The position numbers and the translations under genes were made by a program. A DNA stretch of 64,000 nucleotides from Nocardia cyriacigeorgica (GTDB taxonomy: Bacteria > Actinomycetota > Actinomycetes > Mycobacteriales > Mycobacteriaceae), in contig NZ_JARWNX010000062.1 in NCBI RefSeq assembly GCF_029868385.1, forward strand, positions 62,001 through 126,000, written 5' to 3'. The notes below the pieces were generated by a model. It saw nothing but the letters and a program-made list of their open reading frames with translations. It had not been told where the DNA came from and did not search any database. Shown piece after piece: positions 2,155 to 19,980 of the stretch; positions within the stretch are counted from its first letter, which is position 1, and every line of letters starts with the position of its first letter.

Positions 2155-3117
2155 ATGGACGCACAGCTGCGCGAATGGAAAGACGGCGGACGGTATGTCG
2201 ATTTCCTCGGGTTCGAGGTCTTCTACCGGGTCGCGGGCAGCGGGCCGTATCTGCTGTTGATCCACGGGTATCCGTTCAACTCCTGGGACTGGGAGCCGCT
2301 GTGGGACCGGCTCACCGAACGATTCACCGTGATCGCGCCGGACATGATCGGCATGGGTTTCTCCGCCAAACCCGCCGAATACGACTATTCGGTGCTCGGC
2401 CACGCCGATATGCACGAGGCGCTGCTGGCCGAACTCGGTGTCTCGCACTGCCATGTGCTGGCCCATGATCTCGGCGTTTCGGTCGCCCAGGAGATGCTGG
2501 CCAGGCACGAAGCCGCGGGCCCGGCGGCGCGGCCGTACCGCATCGACTCACTGACCTGGCTCAACGGCGGGCTGTTCATCGAGGCTTACCGGCCGCGGCT
2601 GGTCCAGCAGGTGCTGTCCACCCCGGTGGGCGAGGTCGCGAGCCGGTTCCACAAGGTGTTGCTGTCCAAGCCGATGCTGGCGCGGTCGATCGATGAGATG
2701 TTCGGTCCCGCCACCAAACCGAGCCAGCGGCTGCTCGACCAGTTCGACCAGATCATGAACTACAACGACGGCGGCCGTGTCACCCACAAGGTGGGTCGGT
2801 TCGTGCGCGACCGGCTGACCTACCGCAACCGCTGGGTGCACGCCATGCGCACCACCTCGGTGCCGATGCGGCTGATCAACGGCCCGGCCGACCCGAACTC
2901 GGGCAGGCATATGGCCGAACGCTACCGCGAGGTGATCCCGAACCCCGATGTGGTGATGCTGCCCGACGCCATCGCGCACTGGCCGCATATCGAGGCGCCG
3001 GACGCGGTACTGGCGGCCGCGCTCGACCACATCGAGCGTGCGTCAGCGACGACGGCGCATGGTCAGCACACCGGCCACCCAGCCGACGAGGAACAACAGG
3101 GTCATCGTGCGAGGTGA
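2155..3117 (+). CDS. Alpha/beta hydrolase, haloalkane dehalogenase / epoxide hydrolase-like
   Basis: A 320-aa soluble alpha/beta hydrolase. HGYPFNSWDWEP forms the oxyanion loop. AHDLGVSVAQE carries an Asp nucleophile where serine hydrolases have Ser, as in haloalkane dehalogenases and epoxide hydrolases. HWPHIEAP supplies the catalytic His. The ATG at 2155 follows an AGGTGGAG ribosome-binding site; an in-frame ATG at 2143 is less likely. The last ~25 residues (from ERASATTAHG) read antisense through a remnant of a lapA-like gene. They are therefore probably not part of the original protein, but a by-product of the repeat that bounds the neighbouring island. Confidence 0.75.
   Translation: MDAQLREWKDGGRYVDFLGFEVFYRVAGSGPYLLLIHGYPFNSWDWEPLWDRLTERFTVIAPDMIGMGFSAKPAEYDYSVLGHADMHEALLAELGVSHCHVLAHDLGVSVAQEMLARHEAAGPAARPYRIDSLTWLNGGLFIEAYRPRLVQQVLSTPVGEVASRFHKVLLSKPMLARSIDEMFGPATKPSQRLLDQFDQIMNYNDGGRVTHKVGRFVRDRLTYRNRWVHAMRTTSVPMRLINGPADPNSGRHMAERYREVIPNPDVVMLPDAIAHWPHIEAPDAVLAAALDHIERASATTAHGQHTGHPADEEQQGHRAR
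2981..3096. repeat. Left copy of ~115-bp direct repeat bracketing the PKS island
   Basis: This stretch matches 16544-16657 in the same orientation with one single-base deletion and about five mismatches over ~115 bp. It comprises the 3' end of the dehalogenase-like gene and the 3' end of a lapA-like gene on the other strand. In this copy the hydrolase is complete and lapA is only a stump; in the right copy the reverse is true. Confidence 0.85.
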
Positions 3118-3128
3118 TGGCCCAGGAA
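3043..3128 (-). pseudogene. 3' remnant of a lapA-like (DUF1049) membrane protein gene
   Basis: Read on the minus strand this gives MTLLFLVGWVAGVLTMRRRR and a TGA. That is nearly identical to the C-terminus of the intact LapA-like protein at 16605-16829 (LLFLFLVGWVAGVLTMRRRR). Just upstream an 'AITS' fragment recalls TITSP of the intact gene but in another frame, so the homology decays within ~90 bp. No start or transmembrane N-terminus remains. I infer a truncated duplicate left at the island boundary. Confidence 0.7.
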
Positions 3129-3154
3129 TCCGAGACCCGGCAGAACAGTCGCCG

Positions 3155-4009
3155 ATGCATATGGATCCGGTGACGGCGGCCGGTGTAACGATCCCCGAGC
3201 AGCACTTCCACTGGGACGACACCGATTCGCGGCGCTATCGGCACGCGGTCGGGCAGAGCGACCGACAGGCCGGAATGCTGCCGACGTTCGCCCTCACCGC
3301 TCCCGGCGCGTTCGGGGTGGCGTCTCCGGATTTCTATCATCCGGAGCCGCCCGAGGTCCGGTTCCCCGGTATCCGGCTGAACCTGGCCACCCTGCTACAG
3401 CAGAGCCAGCAACTGCGGGTGCACGCCCCGATACCGGAGTCCGGGACCGCACGGTGTCGCGGCGAAGTGCTCCGGATCGAGAACCGTGGCACCGCAGCCG
3501 TTCTCGTGCAGCGCACCGAGCTGGTCGCCGAGGACGGACGCACGCTCGTTTCCGGGATCTCCCGTATCCACGCACGCGGTGCGGGTAGGCCCGCCGCTCC
3601 GGCCGTCCGCCGTACGGCGCCGGAAGCAGATGAATCGGCCCCCGCCATCGAGATCGTCGTGCGCACCGACGAGCAGCAGGCGCAGTGGTATCAGGCGTGC
3701 GGGAAGAACACCTCGTTGCGCAACAATGTGCACACCGACGCCGCTTTCGCGTCGGCCGCCGGGCTGGCCGGGCCGATCATGCAGGGTGTGTGCACCTACG
3801 CCATGGTGTGTGCGGCATTGGTCGATGCGGTTCTGGACGCGGAGGTGTCCCGAGTACGCGAATACACGGCGCGATTCACCGGAATGGTGTTCCCCGGTGA
3901 ATCGCTGCACACGCGAATCTGGCCGGATGCGTTCGGGTACCGGTTCCGCACCTCGGTCCCCGAACGCGCCGACGCACCGGTCCTGCTGGGTGAGCTGCGG
4001 ACCGACTGA
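3155..4009 (+). CDS. MaoC / hydratase-2-like double hot-dog protein with altered active site
   Basis: A 284-aa protein whose second half resembles R-specific enoyl-CoA hydratases: NNVHTDAAFASAAGLAGPIMQG followed by CTYAMVCAALVD, parallel to the family's D-x-N-P-L-H-x-D and GPI-x-H-G-x-x-TY. The catalytic Asp five residues before the His is Leu here, and the usual HG is QG, so normal hydratase chemistry is doubtful. It could be an evolved dehydratase, thioesterase-like or binding protein acting on the PKS product. The start is uncertain: ATG 3155 and ATG 3161 are both possible and neither has a good ribosome-binding site. It is the leftmost gene of the island, convergent with the hydrolase at 4020. 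Confidence 0.65.
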   Translation: MHMDPVTAAGVTIPEQHFHWDDTDSRRYRHAVGQSDRQAGMLPTFALTAPGAFGVASPDFYHPEPPEVRFPGIRLNLATLLQQSQQLRVHAPIPESGTARCRGEVLRIENRGTAAVLVQRTELVAEDGRTLVSGISRIHARGAGRPAAPAVRRTAPEADESAPAIEIVVRTDEQQAQWYQACGKNTSLRNNVHTDAAFASAAGLAGPIMQGVCTYAMVCAALVDAVLDAEVSRVREYTARFTGMVFPGESLHTRIWPDAFGYRFRTSVPERADAPVLLGELRTD

Positions 4010-4019
4010 GCGCGTCCGG

Positions 4020-4865
4020 TCAGCCGGACACCAGGAACGGGGCGATCTCGGCCGCCACCGCCTCGGCATTCTCGATGTGCAGATGATGTCCACCGGGGAG
4101 CGTGACCTGCCGTAGTTTCGGCACCGTACCGATCCGCGCCGGATAGTAGGGCTCCACCAGGGAGGAGCGTTCCGCGGTCACCAACAGGGTGGGCGCGGTG
4201 ATCGCGCCGAGGAATGCCAGCACCTGTTCTTCGGTCAGGGTCGGCGTGATGCCACGATTGAGCCGTACGTCATGACGCCAGGAGTACCCCGCGGCGACCT
4301 CCACCAGGTCTCGGTCGACCAGCAGTTGCGCGGTGTCGAGCAGAATATCGGCCAGCTGGACCCGCGCTTTCACCGCCTGCATCCGGCTGCGGTACACCGG
4401 GTGTCGGTCGCCACGCAGATAGGTGTCGAGGTAGCGGGCCGTTCCCGAGACGGTCCGCTCCGGATCCGCGGACAGCGGTCCGATGGCATCGATGAGTACC
4501 AGCCGATCGACCTTGTCCGGATGGAGACCGGCGATCAGCGATGCGACCGCCCCGCCGAGCGAATGACCGATCAGCCGGAAGCGATCCCAGCCCTGGGTAT
4601 GGGCCAATTCGAGTACACAGGCCGCGAATTCGAGATAGCCGCAGGTGACCGAGGGCACCGGATCGGAGCGACCGTGGCCGGGCAGATCGACCGCGATCAG
4701 ATCGGCGCCGACCAGATACTCGGCCAGCGGATCGAATCCGGCACAGTTGTCGAGGATGCCGTGCAGACAGAGCACCGGCAGCCCGCTACCGCCGGTGCCG
4801 CGCCTGCCGCGCAGGGTGATACCCGCCTTCGGCAGCGCGAACTCCACCTCTTCCCACACGCTCAT
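4020..4865 (-). CDS. Alpha/beta hydrolase, putative product-release thioesterase of the PKS
   Basis: A 281-aa serine hydrolase: LCLHGILDN oxyanion loop, DLPGHGRSD, nucleophile elbow GHSLGG, and catalytic His in GGHHLHIE. Its ATG overlaps the PKS stop (TGATG), so the two are almost certainly co-translated; a GTG at 4868 is an alternative start. The PKS has no C-terminal thioesterase domain, so a discrete hydrolase here is the natural candidate for off-loading the chain. Hydrolysis versus transfer to another acceptor cannot be told. An ester- or lactone-tailoring role is the alternative. Confidence 0.75.
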   Translation of the reverse strand: MSVWEEVEFALPKAGITLRGRRGTGGSGLPVLCLHGILDNCAGFDPLAEYLVGADLIAVDLPGHGRSDPVPSVTCGYLEFAACVLELAHTQGWDRFRLIGHSLGGAVASLIAGLHPDKVDRLVLIDAIGPLSADPERTVSGTARYLDTYLRGDRHPVYRSRMQAVKARVQLADILLDTAQLLVDRDLVEVAAGYSWRHDVRLNRGITPTLTEEQVLAFLGAITAPTLLVTAERSSLVEPYYPARIGTVPKLRQVTLPGGHHLHIENAEAVAAEIAPFLVSG

Positions 4866-7800
4866 CACGCGTCCAACCGGGCCAGCACCAGTTCCGACAA
4901 TTCCAGGACGCTCGGGCCCTTCATCAGTTCCATGATGGTGACCTTGGTCGCCAGCTCACGTTCCAGCCAGGCACTGATCTCCACCGCCAACAATGAATCC
5001 AGGTAGTCCATCAGTGGCATGTTCTCGTCCAGGGTCTCGAGAGGGATGCCGAGTACCGCGGCCAGCCGGGTCTTCAGCGCACCCGTCAGCACCGCCCCAC
5101 GATCTCCGGCAGCCGCGGTCTCCAGCTGTTCGCGCAGTGAACTGCCCCTGGCCGTGGTCACCGTACCCACGGCGCGGGCGGCCAGCAGCTCATAGCGGGG
5201 ATGGCTGTCGAGCGTCATACCGTGGTGGCCGAGGAACTGCGACCAATCCATCGGCAGCACACCGACCTGCGGGGCCGGGGTGGACCACAGCGTCGTCAGC
5301 GCGCGATACGCCGCGGCGGCACCGAATCCGCGCATACCGGTCGCGGCGACGAACCGGCCGATGTCGTCGTGCCGGGCGACGTACCCGGCGTCGGCGATGG
5401 CACCCCAGTTGACCGCGAGCGCCACCTGGCCGCGCGCTCGCCGGGCGTGGGCCAACTGGTCGAGGAACGCATTGGCGACGGCATAGTTGCCCTGCCCGCG
5501 ATTACCCACCATGGAGGTCGCCGACGAGAACAATACGAACGCCTCGAGCGGCAGGTCGGTGGTCAGTTCGTCCAGGTGCCAGGCACCGAACGCCTTACCG
5601 GCCAGCACCTTCCCCACTCGGTCGGCATCCATGTCGGCCAGCAGAGCGTCGTCGAGCACCATGGCGCAGTGCAGGATGCCGCGCAACGGCGGAAGGTCGG
5701 TGGCGATGCCTTCGAGGACGGCGGCCACCTCGGCCCGTACGGAGATGTCCGCCGTTTCGACACGGACCCGAACGCCGCGGGCACGCAGCGATTCGACCCG
5801 CGCCGCCTGGTCGTCGTCGGTGATTCCCTTGCGGCCCAGCAGAACCAGGCTGCCGACCCCGGATTCGGCGAGCGCCTCGGCCATCGCCGAGCCGAAACCG
5901 CCCAGTCCGCCGGTGATCAGCCAGGTGCCGTCGAACGACGGCACCCGGGGCGAACGGGCCACGGCGACGTCGCGCTCGTTCATCGCGAGCACGACCTTGC
6001 CGATATGGCGAGCCGCGGCCAGATGCCGGAACGCCGCTTCGGTCTGGTCGGGATGGAACACGCGGTAGGGCAGCGGCCGCAGTTCTCCGGTCGCGAACCG
6101 GTCCATCACTGCCCGCAACACCGTGTTCGTCGCTTCGGGACGGTCCACCAGCAGCTGCCGCAGATCGAAGGCGACGTAGGTGAGGTTGCGCAGGAACGGG
6201 CGCAATCCGAGCCTGCGGTCCTGTAACAGATCGCGTTTGCCCAGTTCGACGAACCGCCCGTACGGGGCGAGACAGGCCAGGCTGCGTTCCGCCGAATCTC
6301 CGGCGATCGAATTGAGCACCACATCCACACCGGCGCCGTCGGTGACCGCTCGGATCGAATCGGCGAAATCCAGGGACCGCGAATCGAACACATGTCGCAC
6401 GCCGAGCGTGCGCAGCAGTTCCCGTTTGGCCGCCGAGCCCGCTGTAGCGAACACCTCGGCCCCCGCGGCGCGGGCGATCTGCACGGCCGCCAGGCCGGTG
6501 CCGCCGGTCGCGGCGTGCACCAGGACGCGTTCGCCCGCGCGGACCCGCGCCAGTTCGTGCAGGGCATACCAGGCGGTGAGGAACACGATCGGCACCGAAC
6601 CGGCCACTTCGAAACCGAGCGTCTCCGGTTTCGGCACGACATGGGCGGCAGCGACGGTGAGATGGCTGCCGAGCGTGCCCTGTGCGGGGCTCACCGCGAC
6701 CACGGCGTCGCCGACGGTGAAGTCGTGCACCCCGCTGCCGACTCGGGTGATCACACCGGCGCATTCGGCGCCGAAGCGGGGTTCGGTGGCCGATTCCATC
6801 GGTGGTATCTGCCCCAGCGCGATCATCACGTCCAGGAAGTTGAGACCCGATGCGACGACCTCGATCTCCACTTCCCCTGCGGCCGGTGCGGTCCGGGCCC
6901 GCTCGTGGTATCGCAGCGCGTCCAGCGAACCGGGTGCCTCGATGGTGAGTGCGACACCGCTGTCCGGCGGGAGCGCGGCGGCCTGGACCGTCTCGGGGCG
7001 CGGCGTCCACGAGGCGAGTCGCCGCACGAAACGTTCCCCGGACCGGATCACGACCTCACGTTCCCGGCCGTCGGCGTGCACCTCGGCCCACAGTGCGTCG
7101 AGATCACCGGGGGTCGGCTCGGCATCCAGGTCGACCACGGTGAAACGCAGTTGAGGCAGCTCCACTCCGATGACGGCTGCCAGACCCCAGGCCGCCGCAC
7201 CGGTGAGATCGCCGCGGTCAGAGCGGAAGACGTGCGCGCCGCGGGTCACTTCGACCACCCGTGGCCACTGTTCGGCATCGTCGCGGCAGACTTGGCGCAG
7301 CAGATCGATGATGCGAAGCGTCGTTCCGGTGAGTGCCTCGTCGAGCAGCCCGGCGGCGCTGCCACGCAGATCGAGTATCGCGGTGGGCACCACCTCGCCG
7401 AGGTCGGACAGATCACGCTCGACGACAGCCCGTCCACCGCGTTCCCGCAACCGCTCGGCCAAGGCGTCCGCCAGTGGCTCATCGCCGCCACCGGTCAGCA
7501 GCAACCAGGTCCCCGGCTCCGGTTCGGGCGCGGGCGGTGGCGGCAGCACCTGTTCGGTGCCGGTACGGGCGACGATCAGCGCTTGCGAGCCGGGCCCCTG
7601 ATGCGCCGGGTCGCCCAGCGCGACGACCTCCGCGAAGTCCAGCGACCGCAGCAGGTCCTCCCAACCGTGCGCGGACAGCAGTGGAGTCTGTGGGCGCAGC
7701 CGATGATCACGGAACGACCACCAGCCTTCGGTGAGCCCGAAGGTCAGATCCAGCCAGGGATTGTCCGGCGCCGCCTCCAGCAGCATCAGCACACCCTCGG

Positions 7801-10800
7801 GTGCGAGCAACTCCTGAAGGTAGAGCAGCGTCTTCTTGGCATCGGCGGTCGCATGCACGACATCGGAGGCGACGACCAGATCGAACGACCCGGCGGTGAT
7901 CCCCTGACCCGCCGGATCGTGTTCGAGGTCCAGCACCCGGTAGTCGACGATATCGTGGCCGCGGAACCGTTCCCTGGCCGTGGCGAGAAACGCGGGCGAC
8001 ACATCGGTGAAGACGTATTCGCATCGGTCGGCGGGCAGTACCGGCAGCAGGCTCGCGGTGAGTCCGCCGGTTCCGCCGCCCACCTCGAGGATGCGCAAGG
8101 TGCGCCCCGGCGCGGCGGAATCGGCGAGTCGGCGCACCAGCTCCCGGCCGAGCGCATTGTAGAAGCGGGCGATCGGTGAGTTCTGGTAGATGGCCTCCAG
8201 ATCGACCAGTGATCCTTCGGCGAACAGCAGCTCGATCGGGTCGGCCGCGCCGGTCAGCACCTCGTGCAGCCGATCACCGGTGCGGCGCAGCAGCAGCAGT
8301 TCCCAGGCGCAGGCCGGGTGGGCGTCGAACATCCGCGCCCACAGATCGTCCACGTCGTCGGCGCTGTGGGCGAGCCTGCGGTACTGCTCGCCCTCTTCGC
8401 GCAGGCTGCCGTCCTCGACCAGCAATCGCAGCAGGCCCTGGAGCGCCCGGCGATATTTCGGCAGCAGGGTCGGGATCTCACCCACTGTGAACTCCGCGTC
8501 GAGGCCGAACGCGTCGAGGGTCCGGGAGACATAGGCCGCGCACAACCGCGCGATATCGCGCTGGTATCCGGCGGCGTAGGTGGTGCGATCCAGCCGGTCC
8601 GACCACTGGCGCGCCGTCGGTGCCAGCTCCGCGGCCAGTGCGGTGAGATCGGTGGACAGGGCGCTGCGCTGCGGCGCAACCACCGGTCCGCATGGTTGCC
8701 ATTCGAGCGTGTAGAAGTCACCGTCCAGCCCGCCCGCCGCGCTCTCGCTCACCGCCCGCACGGCTTTGCCGGACAGCGCGGTGTACTCGGCGAGTACCGT
8801 GCCCTGCTCATCGAGCAGATAGATGTCGACCAGCAGCGTGTCGTCGTTCTTGCGCGGACGGGTGTAGCACCAGACCGGAAGATCCACCGGCCGGTGCATC
8901 CGCACCCGCTCGATTCCGGTCGGCAGATAGCTGATCGGCAGCAGCTGATCGGGATGGCGCTCGGTCGGATGCAGGATGGCGCTCTGGAAGCAGGCGTCGA
9001 GCACGGCCGGATGCAGCAGGTAGCCGTCGAGGCGGCGACGCAGCACCCTCGGCACCTGAATCCGGGCCAGTGCTTCGCCCCGACCGATATCGATCCGGTC
9101 GATACCGCAGAACGCCGGACCGTAGGCGTAGCCGCGGTGGGCGAAACGGCCGTATACGTCGATCGCCTTCGCCGGGTTGGTGCACCGCTCCCGGATCGCG
9201 GCCAGGTCGAACACCAGCGCCTCGGTCGCGGCGCCGGTGTTCGACACGTGGAATCGGCCGCGTGCGTTGCGCAGCCAGGTATCGCCGCGCACCGACCGCT
9301 GATGGAACTCGAATGTGCCGTCCTCCGGATCGAGTTCGAGGCGGCTCAGCTGTGGTTCGTCGCCGAGTACGCAGGCACGTTCGAATTCGACGAACTCGAG
9401 CCCGCACGGCTGCCCGGTCCATTCGCTTGCCGCGGCCAGCGCGGCTTCGATATAGGCGGCCCCCGGCACGATCACCGAGCCGAAGACATCGTGCTCCCTG
9501 ACCCACGACAATCGATGATCGTCCCAGCTGATCTCCCATGCGGGGCGGGCACCGGCGACCGGTTTGAGCATCGGATGACGCTGTCCCCCGGCCCGATAGC
9601 GTTGTGAGATCTCGCTCTCGTTCCAGAACGACTGTCGCTGCCAGGGATTGCGCGCAACATCGAGTACCGGGGCGCCCGCCTGATGATGTCGCGACCAATC
9701 GATCGCGGCGCCATCGGTGTAGAGGCGGGCGAAGGAGTCGAGGAAGGTCGCCCAGTCGTCCTTCTTCCGCATCAGCGAGGGCACGATGGTGGCCTCGGCG
9801 GAGATCTCGGTCACCGAATTGGTCAGGACCGGGTGCGGGCTGAGTTCCACGAAAGTGTCGTAGCCGTCGGCGAGCATCGCCCGGATCGCCGATTCGAACA
9901 GGACCGGCTGCCGGAAATTGCGCCACCAGTACTCGGTGCCGAGTTCGGTGCCCTCGATACGGGCACCGGTCAGCGTCGAATACAGGGGTATGGTCGTCGC
10001 CGCATGCTCGATATCGCCGAGCGCCGCGAGCAATTCGTCGCGCAGTGGGTCCATGTCCTGGCTGTGGCAGGCGCAGTTCACCCGCAGCAGGCGCGCGAAG
10101 ATTCCCTGTTCGTCCAGATCGGCCGCCAGCGCCTCCAGCACCGGGCGCCGCCCCGACAGGGTGCTCGCCCGAGGACTGTTCAGCGCGGAGACCCACACCT
10201 GCCCCGGATACCGCGCGGCCAGCTCATCGGCCTGCGCTTGCGGGACCGCGACGAACATCATGGCGCCGGTCGGATCGGCTCCGTCCTGGATCCGGGCGCG
10301 GTGACAGATCACCTTCAATGCCTCGGACAGGCTCAGCGCACCCGAAACGTGTGCCGCGGCGATCTCGCCCATACTGTGCCCGACCACGGCATCCGGTTCG
10401 ATCCCTCGGGAACGCCACAATGCGGCCAGTGCGATCTGCACGGCGAACATGGTCGGTTGCAGGCAGCGCGTCTGGCCCACGGGCGAGTCCGCCTCGTCCG
10501 CGGTCAGTGCTTCGTAGATGGACCAGTCGATGTATTGCCGCGCCGTCCGGTCACATTCGAGAATCGTGTCGCGGTACACCGGCGAGGTCTCCAGCAGCGT
10601 GCGCCCCATGGCGTACCACTGCGGCCCCTGTCCGTTGAAGACGAAGGCGACCTTCCCGGACCGGCCACGCGGGACCTGCCCGGACACGACCGTTCCGGCG
10701 CGCAGTTTCGCTGCCGCGTCGGCGGCGTCCACCGCGATCACCGTGCGCCGGAACTCGTGATGGCCACGGCGCAGCGCCGTGGCCGCGCCATACGATGCCA

Positions 10801-12244
10801 GCGCCACACCGGAGGTCTCCAGTACTCGCGCGTGCCGCGTGCTCAATTCGTCCAGTGCCGCCGCACTGCGCGCGCTGAACGTCAGCACCGTGGGGACACC
10901 GGTACTCTCGGGCACCCGGCTCGGCTCCGTCGATTCCTGGATCGCTTCGGCCAGTACGACATTGGCGTTCGTGCCACCGAAGCCGAAAGAGTTGACGCTC
11001 GCGTAGGCGATATCGTGCCCGTCGGGCCACGGCTGCCCGGTGGCGGCCACCGCGATCGGCAACTGCCCGAAATCGATATCGGGATTTCCCTCCCGGTAGT
11101 GCAGGCTCGGCGGCACCCGCCGGTGCTGTACACACAGCGCCGCCTTGATCAGCCCGGCGATACCAGCGGCGGCCTCCAGATGGCCGATATTCGTCTTGAT
11201 CGAACCGAGCAGCGCGGTGCGCCCCTGCGCCCGCCCAGTACGCAGTACTCGGCCGAGGGCATTGGCTTCGATCGGATCGCCCACCGGCGTACCGGTGCCG
11301 TGTGCCTCGACATAGCCGATATCGGCCGGATCCACTCCGGCGACGGCCAGCGCCGCCCGGAAGTTCGCTTCCTGAGACTCGCCGCTGGGCACTGTGATGC
11401 CTTGGGTTCGTCCGTCCTGGTTGACCGCGCTGCCGCGGATCACGGCATAGACCCGGTCACCGTCGCGGCGGGCCCGGTCGAGCGGTTTGAGCAGCACCAG
11501 CCCCACGCCCTCGCCACGGACGTAGCCGTTGGCCGCGGCATCGAACGCACGGGACCGCCCATCCGGCGAGAGCATGGCGGCCTGGCTCAACGCGATACCG
11601 AACTGCGGGGTCAACATGAGGTTCACCCCGCCCGCCATCGCCAGTTCGCTCTCCCCGCGACGCAGGCTCTCCACCGCGAGGTGCACCGCGACCAACGACG
11701 ACGAACAGGCGGTATCGATGGTCATACTCGGACCGCGCAGGTCGAAGGTATAGGACAGCCGGTTGGACACGATGCTCATGAAGGTGCCCGTCGCCGAATG
11801 CGCACCGAGCCCCTCGACTTCGCTCGGTGCCGATTGCAATGCGCCGTAGTCCTGACTGCACGCCCCGATGAACACACCGGTCCGGGTTCCCGCACAGGCA
11901 CCGGGCACCACGCCCGCGTCCTCGAAGGTCTCCCAGGCCACTTCCAGGAGTTGGCGCTGCTGCGGATCCATCTGTTCGGCGATGCGGCCGGAGATACCGA
12001 AGAAGGCCGCGTCGAAGGTGTCCACCTCGTCGAGATAGCCGCCCCTGCGCGCGCTGATCCGGCCCGGCTGCTGTGGTTTCGGCGAATAGAACCGGTCGAC
12101 GTCCCAGCGGTCCTCCGGGGTGGGCGTGATCGCGTCGACACCCTGTTCGAGCAGTTCCCACAGTTCCCCGGGGCCGGTGACACCACCTGGTAGCCGGCAG
12201 CCGATACCGATGATGGCGATGGTCTGGTCATCGGCGTTGTTCAT
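4865..12244 (-). CDS. Highly reducing type I polyketide synthase with C-methyltransferase
   Basis: A 2459-aa single-module synthase. Domains in order (rough residues): KS 8-430 with active Cys ~178 in DTACSSS, His in EAHGTGT and NIGHLEAAAG; AT ~545-860 with GHSMGE (~623) and an unusual specificity motif NCACHS; DH ~890-1180 with HDVFGSVIVP (~916) and DACFQ (~1083); C-methyltransferase ~1330-1600 with LEVGGGTGG (~1383); ER ~1790-2100 with HAATGGTGLAA (~1911); KR ~2115-2310 with TGGLGGFG (~2111) and FSSATS/GNYAVANAF; ACP with Ser in YLDSLLAV (~2415). All domains look catalytically complete. The order KS-AT-DH-cMT-ER-KR-ACP is that of fungal highly reducing iterative PKSs and suggests a branched, reduced chain. 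The ATG at 12244 overlaps the upstream stop (ATGA), with GGAG 6 nt before it; the frame stays open upstream but that part is antisense-like. Confidence 0.93.
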   Translation of the reverse strand: MNNADDQTIAIIGIGCRLPGGVTGPGELWELLEQGVDAITPTPEDRWDVDRFYSPKPQQPGRISARRGGYLDEVDTFDAAFFGISGRIAEQMDPQQRQLLEVAWETFEDAGVVPGACAGTRTGVFIGACSQDYGALQSAPSEVEGLGAHSATGTFMSIVSNRLSYTFDLRGPSMTIDTACSSSLVAVHLAVESLRRGESELAMAGGVNLMLTPQFGIALSQAAMLSPDGRSRAFDAAANGYVRGEGVGLVLLKPLDRARRDGDRVYAVIRGSAVNQDGRTQGITVPSGESQEANFRAALAVAGVDPADIGYVEAHGTGTPVGDPIEANALGRVLRTGRAQGRTALLGSIKTNIGHLEAAAGIAGLIKAALCVQHRRVPPSLHYREGNPDIDFGQLPIAVAATGQPWPDGHDIAYASVNSFGFGGTNANVVLAEAIQESTEPSRVPESTGVPTVLTFSARSAAALDELSTRHARVLETSGVALASYGAATALRRGHHEFRRTVIAVDAADAAAKLRAGTVVSGQVPRGRSGKVAFVFNGQGPQWYAMGRTLLETSPVYRDTILECDRTARQYIDWSIYEALTADEADSPVGQTRCLQPTMFAVQIALAALWRSRGIEPDAVVGHSMGEIAAAHVSGALSLSEALKVICHRARIQDGADPTGAMMFVAVPQAQADELAARYPGQVWVSALNSPRASTLSGRRPVLEALAADLDEQGIFARLLRVNCACHSQDMDPLRDELLAALGDIEHAATTIPLYSTLTGARIEGTELGTEYWWRNFRQPVLFESAIRAMLADGYDTFVELSPHPVLTNSVTEISAEATIVPSLMRKKDDWATFLDSFARLYTDGAAIDWSRHHQAGAPVLDVARNPWQRQSFWNESEISQRYRAGGQRHPMLKPVAGARPAWEISWDDHRLSWVREHDVFGSVIVPGAAYIEAALAAASEWTGQPCGLEFVEFERACVLGDEPQLSRLELDPEDGTFEFHQRSVRGDTWLRNARGRFHVSNTGAATEALVFDLAAIRERCTNPAKAIDVYGRFAHRGYAYGPAFCGIDRIDIGRGEALARIQVPRVLRRRLDGYLLHPAVLDACFQSAILHPTERHPDQLLPISYLPTGIERVRMHRPVDLPVWCYTRPRKNDDTLLVDIYLLDEQGTVLAEYTALSGKAVRAVSESAAGGLDGDFYTLEWQPCGPVVAPQRSALSTDLTALAAELAPTARQWSDRLDRTTYAAGYQRDIARLCAAYVSRTLDAFGLDAEFTVGEIPTLLPKYRRALQGLLRLLVEDGSLREEGEQYRRLAHSADDVDDLWARMFDAHPACAWELLLLRRTGDRLHEVLTGAADPIELLFAEGSLVDLEAIYQNSPIARFYNALGRELVRRLADSAAPGRTLRILEVGGGTGGLTASLLPVLPADRCEYVFTDVSPAFLATARERFRGHDIVDYRVLDLEHDPAGQGITAGSFDLVVASDVVHATADAKKTLLYLQELLAPEGVLMLLEAAPDNPWLDLTFGLTEGWWSFRDHRLRPQTPLLSAHGWEDLLRSLDFAEVVALGDPAHQGPGSQALIVARTGTEQVLPPPPAPEPEPGTWLLLTGGGDEPLADALAERLRERGGRAVVERDLSDLGEVVPTAILDLRGSAAGLLDEALTGTTLRIIDLLRQVCRDDAEQWPRVVEVTRGAHVFRSDRGDLTGAAAWGLAAVIGVELPQLRFTVVDLDAEPTPGDLDALWAEVHADGREREVVIRSGERFVRRLASWTPRPETVQAAALPPDSGVALTIEAPGSLDALRYHERARTAPAAGEVEIEVVASGLNFLDVMIALGQIPPMESATEPRFGAECAGVITRVGSGVHDFTVGDAVVAVSPAQGTLGSHLTVAAAHVVPKPETLGFEVAGSVPIVFLTAWYALHELARVRAGERVLVHAATGGTGLAAVQIARAAGAEVFATAGSAAKRELLRTLGVRHVFDSRSLDFADSIRAVTDGAGVDVVLNSIAGDSAERSLACLAPYGRFVELGKRDLLQDRRLGLRPFLRNLTYVAFDLRQLLVDRPEATNTVLRAVMDRFATGELRPLPYRVFHPDQTEAAFRHLAAARHIGKVVLAMNERDVAVARSPRVPSFDGTWLITGGLGGFGSAMAEALAESGVGSLVLLGRKGITDDDQAARVESLRARGVRVRVETADISVRAEVAAVLEGIATDLPPLRGILHCAMVLDDALLADMDADRVGKVLAGKAFGAWHLDELTTDLPLEAFVLFSSATSMVGNRGQGNYAVANAFLDQLAHARRARGQVALAVNWGAIADAGYVARHDDIGRFVAATGMRGFGAAAAYRALTTLWSTPAPQVGVLPMDWSQFLGHHGMTLDSHPRYELLAARAVGTVTTARGSSLREQLETAAAGDRGAVLTGALKTRLAAVLGIPLETLDENMPLMDYLDSLLAVEISAWLERELATKVTIMELMKGPSVLELSELVLARLDA

Positions 12245-13227
12245 TGCTGCTCCAGATATTTGAAGGCGGTAAGCACCTGTGCGGTTGTGAAGACGTGCTG
12301 GGTGGCTCGGAACTTGCGGTAGCCATCGGTTTCCGGATAGGGGTATCGCCCGCCGAACCATGAGCCGTCCACGCGGCGCCGGTCCAGCAACCAATCGACC
12401 GCGCGGCGCACCGGTAGATCGTCGACACTCATACCGGCCTGCGCGAGCGTCGCCAGCGCGAGCGCCGTCTGGAGTTCGGGCGCCGAGGGCTCACCACGGA
12501 AACCCTCGACCTGGGAGAACCAGCACCCGTCCGGGCGTTGCTGTTTCAGTACGAAATCGCGTGCCTTCGCCACGGTGGCGTAATCGCCGAATTGCACCAG
12601 GGCGGCGACGGCCGGACGCATCAGATAATAATGGGTGCAGTAGTAGTACCAATTGATGCCGAAATGCCCCTCGCTGCCCTGCTTCCCGGCGAGAAAATCC
12701 AGGGCCTCGTCCAGATACAGCGGTTCCACGTCTGCTTCGTCCAGTGCGCACAGGGCAAATCCGGTCACCGATGATTCCCATTGAAAAGCCTTGGGAATAT
12801 GGCTGTGCACCTCGGCCCATGGTCCGTCCGGAGATTGTCGGCTCCGTAGAAATTCCACCTTGTCGCCGACGGTGTCGCCCTGACCGAGCAGGGCCAGCGC
12901 CGAGATGTACTCGCTACTGGTTTCGGTGCAGTACTCGGCGGGCCCGATCTCGAGGGCGCCCCAGCTGAGCATCCCGGTCGGCTTCTCCCGTCCGGCGAGG
13001 AAGTCGAGGATTCCGCGCGTCAGCTGCCCCGCATGGTCGGGTAATTCCCGCTGCCACAGCGCAATCGCCTTGAGGGCGTTGACCGAATCCCATTCCAGGA
13101 ATACCACGCTCGACGGGTCCTCCGCGATGGCCCCATCGGATTGCTGACAGGCCAGGAAGTACCCGAACGCGTCGGCGACGACGTCGGTGAGCGCCTGCGA
13201 CTTTCTGTCGAACAGTTCGGCGAGCAT
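12241..13227 (-). CDS. Single-barrel prenyltransferase / squalene-cyclase-fold protein
   Basis: A 328-aa protein built of about five QW-type repeats: QQSDGAIAE, RQSPDGPWAE, QGSEGHFGINW, QRPDGCWFSQ and RRVDGSWFGG. This pattern marks the alpha/alpha-barrel of squalene-hopene cyclases and protein prenyltransferase beta subunits. It is about half the length of a squalene-hopene cyclase, so one barrel only, and no DXDD acid motif is visible; the aligned positions read EWDSV and WESSV. It is first in the operon cyclase-like, PKS, hydrolase, with a 4-bp overlap into the PKS. It may cyclise, bind or chaperone the polyketide or an isoprenoid part; function is unknown. The ATG 13227 start has only a weak ribosome-binding site. 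Confidence 0.7.
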   Translation of the reverse strand: MLAELFDRKSQALTDVVADAFGYFLACQQSDGAIAEDPSSVVFLEWDSVNALKAIALWQRELPDHAGQLTRGILDFLAGREKPTGMLSWGALEIGPAEYCTETSSEYISALALLGQGDTVGDKVEFLRSRQSPDGPWAEVHSHIPKAFQWESSVTGFALCALDEADVEPLYLDEALDFLAGKQGSEGHFGINWYYYCTHYYLMRPAVAALVQFGDYATVAKARDFVLKQQRPDGCWFSQVEGFRGEPSAPELQTALALATLAQAGMSVDDLPVRRAVDWLLDRRRVDGSWFGGRYPYPETDGYRKFRATQHVFTTAQVLTAFKYLEQQ

Positions 13228-13566
13228 GTCGACTATCGCGGATCGCCACCCGAGGGAGTGAGGAAATAGAAAGCACTGTTATCGTTCATATTCCACTCCG
13301 CATACGCTCTCCGAGCCGGTCGACACCGAATCGCGCCGACACCGGCAAGTTAACACAGCGCAACCCGACGGGACGCTCCCATAAATGGGAATATGGTCAC
13401 CTTGCAGCATTGCCCTGAATGCGATATTCAGTTCGCCGACACATACTTCCGGTCAGCATCCGCTGAGCGCAGCCGAACAATTCGAACCAACTCATGCGAC
13501 ACATCCGGTTCCCGCGGTACCTCCCCGCGGCCGGACAGTGCCGTTTTCGGTGGATGGGAAGACATC
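13228..13566. promoter_or_regulatory. Divergent promoter region of the PKS island with two palindromes
   Basis: These 339 bp separate the two operons of the island and are more AT-rich than their surroundings. TCCCATAAATGGGA at 13377-13390 has 6-bp arms around AA, and TGAATGCGATATTCA at 13416-13430 has 5-bp arms. Either could be an operator. No regulator gene lies inside the island, so control would come from outside. No small gene is evident. Confidence 0.45.
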
Positions 13567-15204
13567 ATGCAGCGTGCCGATCTCCTACGGCAGCCCTGGG
13601 TCGAGGTGACGACGCTCGGCGATCTTCTGGAGCGGCGGGCGCACGAACACCCGGATCGGATCGCGCTGGCCTTCCCCGACCAAGAGATGTCCTACGCCCA
13701 GCTCGCCGCGCGGGCCGAAGTCCTCGCCAGCGGATTGCTGGCAGCGGGCACCTCCGCCGGGGATGCCGTCGGCATCCTGCTGCCCAACTGCCCGGACTCC
13801 ATCGCCGCATTGTTCGCGATCACCCGGATCGGCGCACTGCCGGTGCCGGTCAACAACCGGTTCAAAGAACATGAACTGACGCAGGTCATCACCCACTCGC
13901 GTATGCGGTTACTCTTCGTGCACGACTCCACGCCACTACCGGAGATCGTGCGGCAACAGGCACCGCTGCTGGAACACGTGGTACAGCTCGGAGATGAGCC
14001 GGTCGCGCCGCGCACCGTGTCCGAGCGCGAATTCCTCGACGACGGCTCCCGGCTCGGCTCCGGCCACGTGCGCGAGCGTGCCCGATACGTCCGGGTGCGC
14101 GATACCGCCGTAGTCATGTACACCTCCGGCACGTCGGCCAGCCCGAAGGGCGCCATGATCAGCCATGAGGCGCTGATCCGGTTCGCGGCAGGGGCCGGTC
14201 ACGGCCGTCTCGAACTCACCGGAGACGACCGGGTCTGGACGCCGCTGCCGCTGTTCCATATCGGCGCGGTGGCCTTCGCGATCGCGAGTATCCACGCCGG
14301 CTGCACCTACGCCCATGTGGGCCTGTTCCGGCCCGACACCGCGCTGCGCCAGCTCGAAGCGCAGCGCTGCACGGTCGCACTGCCCGGCTTCGAAACGATC
14401 TGGCTGCCCGTGCTCGACCATCCCGACTTCGCGACACGCGACCTGTCCGCGCTGCGCCTGGTGATGACCGTCGGTGTACCAGAACGCGTCCGCGATATGG
14501 CGAGCCGTATTCCGCACGCGGTCCAGGTGTCCTGTTTCGGCATGACCGAAGCCAGCTCCTTCCTGTCGTTGAGCGAACAGACCGACACCCTCGAGCAGCG
14601 CACCACCACCGGTGGCCTGCCACTGCCCGGAATGGAATGCCGCGTCGTCGATCCGGAGACCGGTCAGGATCTGCCGCCGGGAACCGAGGGCGAATTGCTG
14701 TTCCGCGGGACGAACTGCTTCGACGGCTATCTGCACGATCCCGAACTCACCGCACGGTGCTTCGACGACCAGGGCTGGTTCCGGACCGGTGACATAGCGG
14801 TCATGGACGCGGACGGCCGGGTCACCTTCATCAGCCGCCGCAAGGACATGCTCAAGGTGGGCGGCGAGAACGTCTCCGCGGTCGAGGTGGAGGATTTCCT
14901 GCTCCGGCATCCGGCGGTGCACATCGTGCAGGTGGTCGCGGCCCCCGATTCCTACTACGTCGAAGTACCGGCCGCATTCATCGAACTCGCGCCGGGCACC
15001 ACGGCGACCGAACAGGAGATCATCGACTACTGCCTCGGCAGTATCGCCACCTATCGCGCACCGCGCTACGTCCGGTTCGTCGACGAATGGCCGATGTCGG
15101 GCACCAAGATCAAGAAATACGTGCTGCGCGAACGTATCCGCACCGAACTCGAGGAGCGCGGGATCACCGTCGCGCCGAAACTACGTGCACCGCAGGGGGC
15201 GTGA
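13567..15204 (+). CDS. Acyl- or aryl-CoA ligase (AMP-binding)
   Basis: A 545-aa adenylate-forming enzyme. YTSGTSASPKG is the phosphate loop, GMTEASSF the A5-type motif, GWFRTGDIA and RRKDMLKVGGENV the hinge and A8 region, and SGTKIKKYVLRE holds the C-terminal catalytic Lys. It most likely activates a carboxylic acid as a CoA thioester, either to prime the PKS or to feed a side chain. No fatty-acyl-AMP-ligase insertion was noticed. The ATG 13567 has GGGAAG upstream; an in-frame GTG-started extension to 13393 lies in the promoter region. Its stop overlaps the P450 start (TGATG). Confidence 0.88.
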   Translation: MQRADLLRQPWVEVTTLGDLLERRAHEHPDRIALAFPDQEMSYAQLAARAEVLASGLLAAGTSAGDAVGILLPNCPDSIAALFAITRIGALPVPVNNRFKEHELTQVITHSRMRLLFVHDSTPLPEIVRQQAPLLEHVVQLGDEPVAPRTVSEREFLDDGSRLGSGHVRERARYVRVRDTAVVMYTSGTSASPKGAMISHEALIRFAAGAGHGRLELTGDDRVWTPLPLFHIGAVAFAIASIHAGCTYAHVGLFRPDTALRQLEAQRCTVALPGFETIWLPVLDHPDFATRDLSALRLVMTVGVPERVRDMASRIPHAVQVSCFGMTEASSFLSLSEQTDTLEQRTTTGGLPLPGMECRVVDPETGQDLPPGTEGELLFRGTNCFDGYLHDPELTARCFDDQGWFRTGDIAVMDADGRVTFISRRKDMLKVGGENVSAVEVEDFLLRHPAVHIVQVVAAPDSYYVEVPAAFIELAPGTTATEQEIIDYCLGSIATYRAPRYVRFVDEWPMSGTKIKKYVLRERIRTELEERGITVAPKLRAPQGA

Positions 15205-16481
15205 TGCGCGGTGAGCTGCGCACCCTGACCCGCCTCTACCGCAACTCCCTGCGCCTGCGCACCTCCACAGCGCTCGGTGACCCTGTCGCCTCGGTGCTCG
15301 ACCTGCCACGCGGAGCCGACGGGCATCCGAGCTACGAACGGATTCGCGCCCGTGGCGATCTGGTGCGCGGCCGCAGCGGTCTGTGCATGTCCGCCTCGTA
15401 CTCGGTGTGCAATGAGGTGCTGCGCGACAACAGATTCCGGGTGGCGCCGACCTCGGCGGTGCGCCTGCGACTACGCCCGCTACCGGATCAGCGCACCGAT
15501 TTCCTGGTACATCCACTCGACGATTCGCTCGCCTCGGCGAATCCACCGGAGCACACCCGGCTGCGCAAACTCGTCGCGCCGCTGTTCGGCGCTGCGCAGA
15601 TGCGGGCACGTCGCGAGTTCGTCGAAGATCTCGTCGAGCGCCAGCTCGACCGGCTGGCGGGCGGGGACCCGGTCGACCTGATCGATGGTTTCGCGCTGCG
15701 CATTCCGAGTCTGGTGATCGCCGACCTGCTCGGACTGCCCGCCGAACATCACGACGACTTCGCGCGCTGGGGTATCGAATTCGGCGCCACCGTGGACGGC
15801 GCCCGTGGCCTGCGCGAGCGCCAGCGCACCCGAGTCCTGCTCGCCGAACTCACCGACTATTTCGCCGACGCCGTGGCTGCCCGCCGAGGCGAACCCGGTC
15901 CCGATATGATCAGCGCCCTCACCGGTGCCATCGATACGGGCGATATGACCGAGGCCGGGGTCGTATCGACCTGCCAGGCGCTGCTCATCGGCGGTTTCGT
16001 CACCACGGCCAACATCATCGGCAACGCCGTGGTCGCGCTCTCGGCGAACCCGGACCAGCGCGCGATGTTCGCCGCCGACCTCGATCTGGCGGGCCGGGTG
16101 GTGGAGGAGACACTGCGCTGGGAGGCACCTGCCCAATACAGTGTTCGGGTGGCGGGCGAGAGCGTCGAACTCGCCGGGCAGCAGCTGTCCAAGGGCACCC
16201 CGGTGGTTCTGCTACTCGCCGCGGCAAACCGCGATCCCGACGTGTTCACCGAACCCGGCCGGTTCGATATCACCCGCGCGAACGCACGCGACCACCTGTC
16301 CTTCGCAGCGGGTGTGCACTACTGCCTGGGCGCGGGCCTGGCCCGGATGGAAGGCGAGATCGCCCTGCGCGCTCTCTATCGCCGATATCCGCACGTGCAG
16401 GCGGTGGGCGCGCCGTCGTACTGCCCGTCCAGGGTCATTCGTGGCCCGCAACGCCTACTCGTCCGCACCCACGCCGCCTGA
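15204..16481 (+). CDS. Cytochrome P450 with atypical I-helix
   Basis: A 425-aa bacterial-type P450. SFAAGVHYCLGAGLAR carries the heme-ligand Cys (FxxGxHxCxG), and EETLRWEAP contains the K-helix ExxR. The I-helix reads LLIGGFVTTAN, so the usual acidic residue before Thr (AGxET/DT) is Val. This may alter proton delivery and chemistry. It is coupled to the CoA ligase by a 1-bp overlap with AGGGGG just upstream. Likely role: oxidation of the polyketide. Redox partners are not encoded nearby. Confidence 0.9.
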   Translation: MRGELRTLTRLYRNSLRLRTSTALGDPVASVLDLPRGADGHPSYERIRARGDLVRGRSGLCMSASYSVCNEVLRDNRFRVAPTSAVRLRLRPLPDQRTDFLVHPLDDSLASANPPEHTRLRKLVAPLFGAAQMRARREFVEDLVERQLDRLAGGDPVDLIDGFALRIPSLVIADLLGLPAEHHDDFARWGIEFGATVDGARGLRERQRTRVLLAELTDYFADAVAARRGEPGPDMISALTGAIDTGDMTEAGVVSTCQALLIGGFVTTANIIGNAVVALSANPDQRAMFAADLDLAGRVVEETLRWEAPAQYSVRVAGESVELAGQQLSKGTPVVLLLAAANRDPDVFTEPGRFDITRANARDHLSFAAGVHYCLGAGLARMEGEIALRALYRRYPHVQAVGAPSYCPSRVIRGPQRLLVRTHAA

Positions 16482-16543
16482 CGACTCCCGACACTGCTCG
16501 AGCGGACCTCGACGGGAAGAAGCCCACTGCGTCCTCCCGGTTC

Positions 16544-16603
16544 GGCCGCATATCGGGCGCCGGACGCGGCACTGGCGGCCGCGCTCGACCACATCGACCG
16601 CGC
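16544..16603 (+). pseudogene. 3' remnant of the dehalogenase-like hydrolase gene
   Basis: This matches the last ~20 codons of the hydrolase at 2155-3117 (region encoding PHIEAPDAVLAAALDHIE) but with a 1-bp deletion that breaks the frame and nothing upstream of it. It directly abuts the 3' end of the intact lapA-like gene. It marks the right edge of the inserted island. Confidence 0.7.
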
Positions 16604-16657
16604 GTCAGCGTCGACGGCGCATGGTCAGCACACCGGCCACCCAACCGACGAGGAACA
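16544..16657. repeat. Right copy of ~115-bp direct repeat bracketing the PKS island
   Basis: Direct repeat of 2981-3096. Relative to the left copy a single base is missing in the hydrolase reading frame (TATCG-GGCGCC versus TATCGAGGCGCC), and about five substitutions are seen across the rest. On the lapA side this copy continues into an intact gene. Confidence 0.85.
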
Positions 16658-16829
16658 GGAACAGCAGGATTACCCACATCGGTGAGGTGATGGTGACGGC
16701 CAGGATGTCGATCGACACCTTGGTGCGATTCTGCAAAATGAAGACGACGGCCAAAATCGTCAGCACCAGCGCCACCCATTGGGTCGGTGACACTCGCCCC
16801 AACACCGAACGCTTCTCCGTGGTGTTCAT
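16605..16829 (-). CDS. LapA-domain (DUF1049) small membrane protein
   Basis: A 74-aa protein with two transmembrane helices, WVALVLTILAVVFILQN and VILLFLFLVGWVAGVL, and a basic tail TMRRRR. The first helix followed by QNRTKVSIDIL is the usual pattern of the LapA / DUF1049 family, whose members are tied to envelope or lipopolysaccharide assembly in Gram-negatives and are undefined in actinobacteria. The ATG 16829 start has GGGAGAGG upstream; the longer open frame to 16940 is not needed. Its 3' end lies in the island's right-hand repeat. Confidence 0.75.
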   Translation of the reverse strand: MNTTEKRSVLGRVSPTQWVALVLTILAVVFILQNRTKVSIDILAVTITSPMWVILLFLFLVGWVAGVLTMRRRR

Positions 16830-17730: not shown

Positions 17731-19980
17731 ATGGCGCACTCCGCCCCGCCTGCCTCCGGGGTGACCGTCCAGCCCGACCGGTCGCCGGAGACATCGCGTG
17801 GCAACCAGGTGGCCGAGGCCATCGAACGCTTCACCGCGGCCTGGCAGAACGCCGACACTCCCCCGGAACTCCGCAGCTATCTGCCCGATGCGCCCGCCAT
17901 CCGGCGGGTATCGCTGATCGAGCTGATCAAGATCGATCTGGCGCATCGGTGGCAGCGCGGCACCGCACCGAAACGATTGGCCGAATACGTCGACGAACTG
18001 CCGGAGCTGCGCACCTGGCCGTTACCGCCGGATCTGATCTACGAGGAGTTCCATCTACGCCGCCGGGCGGGCGGTTCGGTCGACGTCGACGAATACACCG
18101 CCGCCTATCCCGAACAGGCCGAACAACTTTCGCAACTGCTCACCACCGAGGACTATCACAGCACCCTGCTCGGCGTACCCACCGAACCGGCGAATCTCGA
18201 TGAGCTGGAGGCCGGGCAGCGCATCGACGACTTCGATCTGATGGCCGGGCTCGGCCGCGGCGCGTTCGCCCGGGTCTTCCTCGCCCGCCAGCGTTCCATG
18301 CAGCGGCTGGTCGCGGTGAAGATCTCCCGCGACAAGGGCACCGAACCGCAGACCCTGGCCCAGCTCGACCACGACTACATCGTGCGCGTATTCGACCAGC
18401 GGGTGCTCGACGCGCCGCCGCTGCGGCTGCTGTATATGCAGTACGTGCCCGGCGGGACGCTGCTCACGGTGCTGGAACGGGTGCGCAACACACCGCCGCA
18501 GCAGCGCAGCGGACAGTTGCTGATCGACGTCATCGACGCCGTGCTCGCGGACAAGGGCGAGATCCAGCCCGCCGAATCACCGGTCCGCGCCGAACTCGCG
18601 GGGCTGTCCTGGCCGGAGACGGTGGCGTGGCTGGGCCGTCGACTGGCACAGGCCCTGGATTACGCGGGCGGCGTCGGTGTCCTGCACCGCGACGTCAAAC
18701 CGGCGAATGTGCTGCTCACCGCGGAGGGCATACCCAAGCTGGCCGATTTCAACATCAGTTTCAGCGGCAACGTCTCCGGCGCCAGTCCGGTGGCCTACTT
18801 CGGCGGATCGCTGGCCTATATGTCCCCCGAGCAATTGTCGGTGGTGCATCCCGAGCGTCCGGCCGCCGCCGCCGACCTCGATACCCGCAGCGACCTGTTC
18901 TCGCTGGCCGTCGTGCTGTGGGAGCTGCTCACCGGCCGCAAACCCTTCGATGACGACACCATCGACGGCGGCGACCGCACGGCATTGGATTCGATGCTGG
19001 ACCGGCGCGCCCACAGCCCGCAGGATCTGCCCTACGACGATCTGCCGCCCGACACCCCCGCCGCCCTGCGCCGTGCGCTGGTGCGCGCTCTCGAACCGGA
19101 TCCGGCCAAACGCTGGGAGCGCGGCGCCGATATGGCCCAGCAGCTCCAGGTCTGCCTCGACGCCCACGCCCGCGATCTGGTCGATCCACCGCCGGGCAGC
19201 GCGCGGCTGCGTGCGCGCAGCTGGATCCATCCGATCATGGCGTTGGCCATCGCCGTACCGAACGCGCTGGCGATCCTCTACAGCTACAACCACAATCGCA
19301 CCCTGATCATCAGCAAACTCGACGCCGATGCCCAGCGCACCTTCGACCGCATCGCCTGGACCAGCTACGGTGTCGGCTTCCTGATCGGCGCGGTGGTGAC
19401 CATCGCGCTGGTGATGCACCTGTGGCTGATCATGCACGGGCTGCGCCGTGGCCGCGACTACGATGCCAAGACCCTGGCCAGGGCACGATCGGACACCCTG
19501 CAACTCGCCAGTCGCAATGTGTTGACCTGCTTCGTGCTCTGGGCGATCACCGGCGTCGCGGTGCCGATGTCGGTGCAGCTGTCCGGCAGCCACATCAGCG
19601 CCGAATCCTCGGCGCATTTCTTCCTGACCCAGATCGTGTGCGGCGCGATCGCCATGGCCTATCCGTACTTCCTGGTCAGTTTCTACGCGGTGCGCTGCCT
19701 GTATCCGGCGTTCCTTCCGCTGGGCGGGCTCACCGCCGAGGACAGTGCGCAACTGCGTGCGCTGGACCGGCGCAGCACCTACTTCCTGACCATCGCCGCG
19801 GCGGTGCCGCTGCTCGGCGCCGCCGGGGTGACCTTCATCCCGCCCGCCGACATTCCGTCGGTGATCGTGCCGCTGCGGGTGCTGTGTTTCGGCGGTGCGC
19901 TGGCCTTCGTCGGCGTGTATTGGTTGTTCCGGATGCTCGAACGCGATCTCGCCGCGCTCGAACGCATAGTCACGCACTGA
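17731..19980 (+). CDS. Membrane Ser/Thr protein kinase with DFN motif
   Basis: A 749-aa protein. Residues 20-150 hold two copies of a helical module around RLAEYVDELPEL and DVDEYTAAYPEQAEQL, an N-terminal layout common in planctomycete kinases. The kinase domain (~165-480) has GLGRGAFARVF, the VAVK lysine and HRDVKPANVLL. The magnesium loop reads ADFN where DFG is standard. APE is present as SPEQL. About six hydrophobic spans follow (~500-740), starting IMALAIAVPNALAILY. Catalytic Lys and Asp are intact, so activity is plausible but the loop may be altered. The ATG at 17731 is the leaderless start. Confidence 0.82.
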   Translation: MAHSAPPASGVTVQPDRSPETSRGNQVAEAIERFTAAWQNADTPPELRSYLPDAPAIRRVSLIELIKIDLAHRWQRGTAPKRLAEYVDELPELRTWPLPPDLIYEEFHLRRRAGGSVDVDEYTAAYPEQAEQLSQLLTTEDYHSTLLGVPTEPANLDELEAGQRIDDFDLMAGLGRGAFARVFLARQRSMQRLVAVKISRDKGTEPQTLAQLDHDYIVRVFDQRVLDAPPLRLLYMQYVPGGTLLTVLERVRNTPPQQRSGQLLIDVIDAVLADKGEIQPAESPVRAELAGLSWPETVAWLGRRLAQALDYAGGVGVLHRDVKPANVLLTAEGIPKLADFNISFSGNVSGASPVAYFGGSLAYMSPEQLSVVHPERPAAAADLDTRSDLFSLAVVLWELLTGRKPFDDDTIDGGDRTALDSMLDRRAHSPQDLPYDDLPPDTPAALRRALVRALEPDPAKRWERGADMAQQLQVCLDAHARDLVDPPPGSARLRARSWIHPIMALAIAVPNALAILYSYNHNRTLIISKLDADAQRTFDRIAWTSYGVGFLIGAVVTIALVMHLWLIMHGLRRGRDYDAKTLARARSDTLQLASRNVLTCFVLWAITGVAVPMSVQLSGSHISAESSAHFFLTQIVCGAIAMAYPYFLVSFYAVRCLYPAFLPLGGLTAEDSAQLRALDRRSTYFLTIAAAVPLLGAAGVTFIPPADIPSVIVPLRVLCFGGALAFVGVYWLFRMLERDLAALERIVTH

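Follow-up and report, generated by a model that had tools for sequence, protein, structure and literature searches.

A six-gene actinobacterial cluster that pairs a reducing polyketide synthase with a squalene-cyclase-fold protein

We analyzed a stretch of 64,000 nt from Nocardia cyriacigeorgica (contig NZ_JARWNX010000062.1, positions 62,001 to 126,000; genome size 6.18 Mb), referred to below as the window. Between positions 3100 and 16543 it holds six genes and little else, and these encode a polyketide synthase (PKS), a squalene-cyclase-fold protein (SQC) and four partner enzymes. In our best reading the cluster represents an undescribed family. We see about equal grounds for and against the proposal that it makes a methyl-branched polyketide and that SQC assists ring closure of the polyketide chain. 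In the open-access literature (MIBiG was not covered) we found no characterised relative of the cluster, no report of this gene combination and no bacterial synthase of this kind together with a squalene cyclase, which agrees with an earlier sequence-only reading of the same DNA that had not recognised the combination. The Nocardia genomics papers that we searched do not mention a squalene cyclase, and a survey of 263 Nocardia genomes reports no deposited Nocardia cluster in the PKS-I category of MIBiG (PMC12153302). Each of the enzyme classes is known; we did not find their combination, a CxET barrel tied to a synthase, in the open-access literature.

Gene content, linkage and selection

All six genes are present and intact and form a single block of 13.4 kb. 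Start sites were fixed by orthologue comparison, which places the starts of the MaoC, PKS, FadD and P450 genes slightly later than the longest open frames imply. The minus strand carries SQC (12241–13227; 328 aa; Pfam SQHop_cyclase_C, 1.4e-13), the PKS (4865–12244; 2459 aa) and a discrete, thioesterase-like α/β-hydrolase (ABH; 4020–4868; Pfam Abhydrolase_1, 2.9e-26). On the plus strand we observed a FadD-type acyl-CoA ligase with conserved core motifs (13567–15204; 545 aa; Pfam AMP-binding, 3.7e-77), a cytochrome P450 (15204–16481; 425 aa; Pfam p450, 3.4e-20) and, at the other end of the block, a MaoC/MFE-2 double hot-dog protein (3155–4009; 284 aa; Pfam MaoC_dehydratas, 1.6e-19). The two operons diverge from an intergenic region at 13228–13566, which by its position is presumed to contain their promoters. 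Translational coupling is plausible at three junctions because the genes overlap there: ATGA at SQC/PKS, where the start ATG of the PKS overlaps the stop of SQC, GTGATG at PKS/hydrolase and TGATG at FadD/P450. The gene content proposed by the sequence-only reading was thus recovered in full, including a lone synthase with the full domain set and a single-barrel QW-repeat protein whose gene overlaps the start of the synthase gene.

Orthologues of SQC (66–77%) were found in 8 of 150 Nocardia genomes, window included, and SQC lies beside the PKS in 14 other actinobacterial genomes, mostly together with the remaining genes. These 14 comprise seven Nocardia, three mycobacteria, Allokutzneria, Actinoallomurus and two further genomes of the order (G400 and G172). 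Five Nocardia loci, those of G138, N. jinanensis, N. grenadensis, N. paucivorans and N. wallacei, carry all six genes arranged as in the window, while two more loci in the genus run into contig ends. The set was also found in a metagenome-assembled Mycobacterium genome (L050, again cut by a contig end), in Allokutzneria (L051), in G400 (L056) and in G172 (L057). The order of the genes varies: in G400 all five genes of the series FadD-P450-SQC-PKS-ABH point in one direction as a single operon, and in L051 and L057 the MaoC gene is relocated beside the P450 gene. Since the genes stay together through such rearrangement, the pattern argues for a shared function, and the scattering of unlinked genes in relatives, which would have spoken against a coherent island, was not what we saw. 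Because Actinoallomurus (L049) retains a reduced, minimal version with just SQC-PKS-ABH, its genome having no P450 orthologue, SQC-PKS is the invariant core of the cluster family.

Of 399 genomes sampled evenly across the order, five have SQC (the window genome G000, G138, the Mycobacterium genome G354, G172 and G400). KS-AT orthologues of at least 66% occurred in 5 of 299 genomes of the order, exactly the five with SQC, and the next KS-ATs (46–51%) were in SQC-free genomes. As a phylum-wide sample of 396 genomes added no further case, we regard the cluster as rare. dN/dS was between 0.11 and 0.40 for each of the six genes and, judged by this sequence comparison, all six are under purifying selection. 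With this selection and with SQC beside the PKS in so many genomes, the arrangement is no chance association.

The synthase and the partner enzymes

Pfam places the domains of the synthase in the order KS, AT, DH, methyltransferase (cMT), ER, KR and ACP, as the sequence-only reading had it, and the main catalytic motifs of all seven are preserved wherever an orthologue's sequence includes them (up to 15 orthologues). This order was earlier called fungal-style. It is indeed that of the fungal highly reducing PKS LovB (7cpx) up to the ACP, but kinship did not follow: the nearest solved protein is the mycobacterial mycocerosic acid synthase MAS (1123 bits), followed by modular PKSs, whereas LovB reaches 691 bits. 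In a KS tree the 14 cassette KSs unite (100/99) among bacterial KSs, with Nocardia and Mycobacterium each together and some deep rows on long branches; as only bacterial rows were included, the tree speaks against fungal kinship indirectly. We found no trace of a fungal origin, and we rejected a fungal transfer on the basis of the higher score of MAS and the grouping of the KS with bacterial KSs. On these comparisons the synthase is bacterial, and 'fungal-style' describes its domain order only.

For a lone bacterial module this order is also less unusual than the sequence-only reading had it. A synthase in G232 (L078), about 50% away, has the same Pfam set and order KS-AT-DH-MT-ER-KR-ACP; its KS is 56% identical, and unlike the cluster it stands in a genome without SQC at E ≤ 1e-30. 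This lone synthase (L078, 5283–13046) is a possible parent architecture. The near KS relatives in the order also include a PKS-NRPS (non-ribosomal peptide synthetase) of the polycyclic tetramate macrolactam type in G366 (L077), likewise a single bacterial synthase. Its KS is about 60% identical to that of the cluster, but its architecture is KS-AT-DH-KR-ACP-C-A-PCP-TE with FAD oxidoreductases and includes neither cMT, ER nor SQC. Polycyclic tetramate PKS-NRPSs are an iterative class and, because the cluster has a single synthase with such a neighbour, iterative use of the synthase is likely by analogy.

The same scores bear on a rival explanation, in which the product is a methyl-branched lipid of the cell envelope, similar to those of MAS/Pks2, and SQC modifies this lipid or helps to transfer it. 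MAS, itself a lone bacterial reducing synthase, is the best solved match, Pks2 is the best NCBIfam match, and many of the hosts are Nocardia and Mycobacterium. However, the Pks2 score of 1339 is far under the cut-off of 2400, by which membership in MAS/Pks2 was ruled out. The cluster synthase moreover has different partners and carries a cMT between DH and ER, which MAS does not have. The conserved set contains no PapA or MmpL-like gene, and the cluster is also carried by Actinoallomurus and Allokutzneria, neither of which has, to our knowledge, a mycolic-acid envelope. We consider an envelope lipid quite unlikely.

Several cluster proteins are, by their motifs, conserved yet divergent from family norms. 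The MaoC-like protein (aligned to 3khp and MFE-2) aligns with hydratase 2 of MFE-2 but has an insertion, no Asp at the GDxNPLH position and PIMQG in place of PILHG; of the Asp...His pair of hydratase 2, the His is retained and the Asp is gone in 11 of 11 orthologues. It is probably no ordinary hydratase, so that of the earlier description as hydratase-like the MaoC family stands and the activity is doubtful. The P450, which is CYP164A2/CYP107-like among PDB entries, has its heme-Cys loop and ExxR, while its I helix (window 15900–16000, LLIGGFVTTANI) reads GGFVTT in 13 of 13 orthologues, with Val in place of the acid of the acid-alcohol pair; this is unusual and conserved. In the hydrolase the serine motif (GHSLGG nucleophile) and the histidine motif (GGHHLH) are retained and conserved; it resembles a CurM-type thioesterase chain (3qit, 9e-21), and its best solved relative is 7al5.

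The cyclase-fold protein and the proposed pathway

An AlphaFold model of SQC from 15 sequences (pLDDT 90.9) shows a complete (α/α)6 barrel. Its best Foldseek matches are monodomain squalene-hopene cyclase (SHC)-like proteins from Archangium/Cystobacter (8paj/8pak), drimenyl diphosphate synthase, MstE (6sbb) and the Actinoplanes protein 6ij1, with TM scores of 0.70–0.75 for the Archangium/Cystobacter proteins, 6ij1 and MstE. Together with the Pfam assignment and the QW repeats, this identifies the fold of class II terpene cyclases. Single barrels of this kind are already known, since the top matches are themselves monodomain proteins, like SQC of about 330–350 residues with QW-like repeats. In contrast to these cyclases, to which it is about 20% identical, SQC has CxET instead of DxDD/DxDT, is coupled to a PKS and belongs to a set without prenyl chemistry. 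The absence of a prenyltransferase or isoprenoid gene from the conserved set suggests that SQC acts on the polyketide and not on an isoprenoid. The same absence, which extends to every member of the conserved set, and the loss of DxDD speak against a meroterpenoid pathway, in which SQC would cyclise a prenyl chain supplied elsewhere and joined to the polyketide; the meroterpenoid cyclase MstE is among the nearest structural neighbours of SQC, but we hold this pathway to be highly improbable.

For a polyketide substrate the steps that we infer are as follows. The single synthase, with its domains intact and probably working iteratively, would build the chain and methylate it with S-adenosylmethionine, the extent of iteration, the chain length and the degree of reduction being part of the proposal. 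SQC would then act on the polyketide chain in a reaction tentatively taken to be ring closure. The remaining enzymes, whose classes are observed, might follow in this order: the hydrolase would release the chain, FadD would activate an acid, either a starter or the released product, and the P450 would oxidise this acid.

Several observations weigh against this proposal. The Asp residues of DxDD are replaced in SQC: all 15 proteins have CxET (T101 is Ala in one), and hhalign places Cys100 next to the first Asp, Glu102 opposite the second and Thr103 opposite the third. The equivalent of SHC His451, which by profile alignment we take to be Phe157, is changed as well, and among solved cyclases an Asp-to-Glu replacement serves to make trapping mutants (D303E entries). 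For these reasons proton-initiated cyclisation by SQC may be absent. The AT signature CACH departs from both the HAFH pattern for malonyl and the YASH pattern for methylmalonyl, and Mycobacterium attenuatum (L048) and Mycobacterium G354 (L055) have the set without the hydrolase. The squalene-cyclase fold proposed by the earlier reading stands, but its suggestion that the chain is cyclised needs qualification, the acid motif being missing. Glu102 could still be an acid, although the other DxDD residues are gone. In the fungal enzyme AstC, the Brønsted acid is the corresponding Asp within a DxDT motif (PMC13244436).

The altered motif also raises the alternative that SQC is no cationic cyclase, and that the barrel was recruited for isomerisation, pericyclic folding, or aldol-type or lyase chemistry on the polyketide, or as a partner that holds the chain of the PKS. 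The residues invariant in 15 of 15 SQC proteins include Y99, C100, E102, T103, S104, E106, Y107, H141, H143 and H188, and the conserved residues, with E151 and Y194–196 among them, are rich in polar ones. The same fold occurs in an enzyme that is by PDB title a transaldolase (AprG; TM about 0.6). However, the top structural matches are terpene cyclases and not AprG, and all 15 proteins keep a carboxylate where the catalytic acid would sit. We regard a non-cationic SQC as possible, if on the doubtful side. Returning to ring closure, a bolder version would have the terpene-cyclase fold evolved for polyketides, such that a polyene methylated by the cMT, with a shape like that of an isoprenoid, is folded and closed at the CxET site of the single barrel; terpene-like rings would then arise from acetate and methionine rather than from isoprene units. 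This we put forward as speculative and unlikely.

Probable chromosomal insertion and significance of the cluster

The block is flanked on both sides by a 102-nt direct repeat (95%). The left copy of the duplicated target segment (2981–3099, with the repeat aligned from 2981) covers the 3′ end of a host hydrolase gene, and the right copy (16544–16664) the C-terminus of a LapA-domain-like host membrane protein on the minus strand. In four relatives (G018, G080, G081 and G079; loci L037, L038, L039 and L041) we observed the empty site, where the host hydrolase gene and the next membrane-protein gene are contiguous. Homology to these sites ends at 3093–3099 and resumes at 16544, nearly the limits of 3118 and 16543 that had been assigned to the island from the letters alone. 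In G018 the matches of the left and right flanks overlap by 119 bp (L037, 5758–5876), so that the duplicated segment spans the ends of two convergent genes and 13.4 kb sits between its copies. With a target segment of about 119 bp present on either side of the block, and with the site undisturbed and empty in four relatives, the cluster looks like a one-block insertion. The relatives might in principle have lost the block by deletion, but this requires a pre-existing repeat.

No recombinase or transposase was found between 3100 and 16543, where the six genes fill the insert, and a duplication of this length is not the signature of a common transposon. It would be accounted for if a circular molecule had recombined at a short stretch of homology. 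Integration at a tRNA end was ruled out, as there is no tRNA or Rfam RNA in the window, and SQC was not found on plasmids. Five other Nocardia carry the cassette without flanking direct repeats of such length, from which we conclude that the repeat is local to the insertion in the window and no property of the cassette. One flank is common to G138, N. jinanensis and N. grenadensis but is not shared by the window, N. paucivorans or N. wallacei. Beside the insertion lies a serine/threonine protein kinase with a predicted membrane region (17731–19980), followed by a TPR protein, with about 91–92% identity in the empty-site relatives. A ribosomal RNA adenine dimethylase family protein (PF00398; 21491–22372) about 5 kb past the island is probably housekeeping RsmA.

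If SQC acts on a polyketide, the architecture of class II terpene cyclases would have entered polyketide biosynthesis, and the small, transferable gene set makes testing by heterologous expression feasible. Nocardia known from clinical and environmental settings and one species of the Mycobacterium kansasii complex would then have a named locus for a compound that is undescribed in the available papers. With no described product found in open-access papers, the cluster offers a tangible starting point in the search for unusual chemistry.

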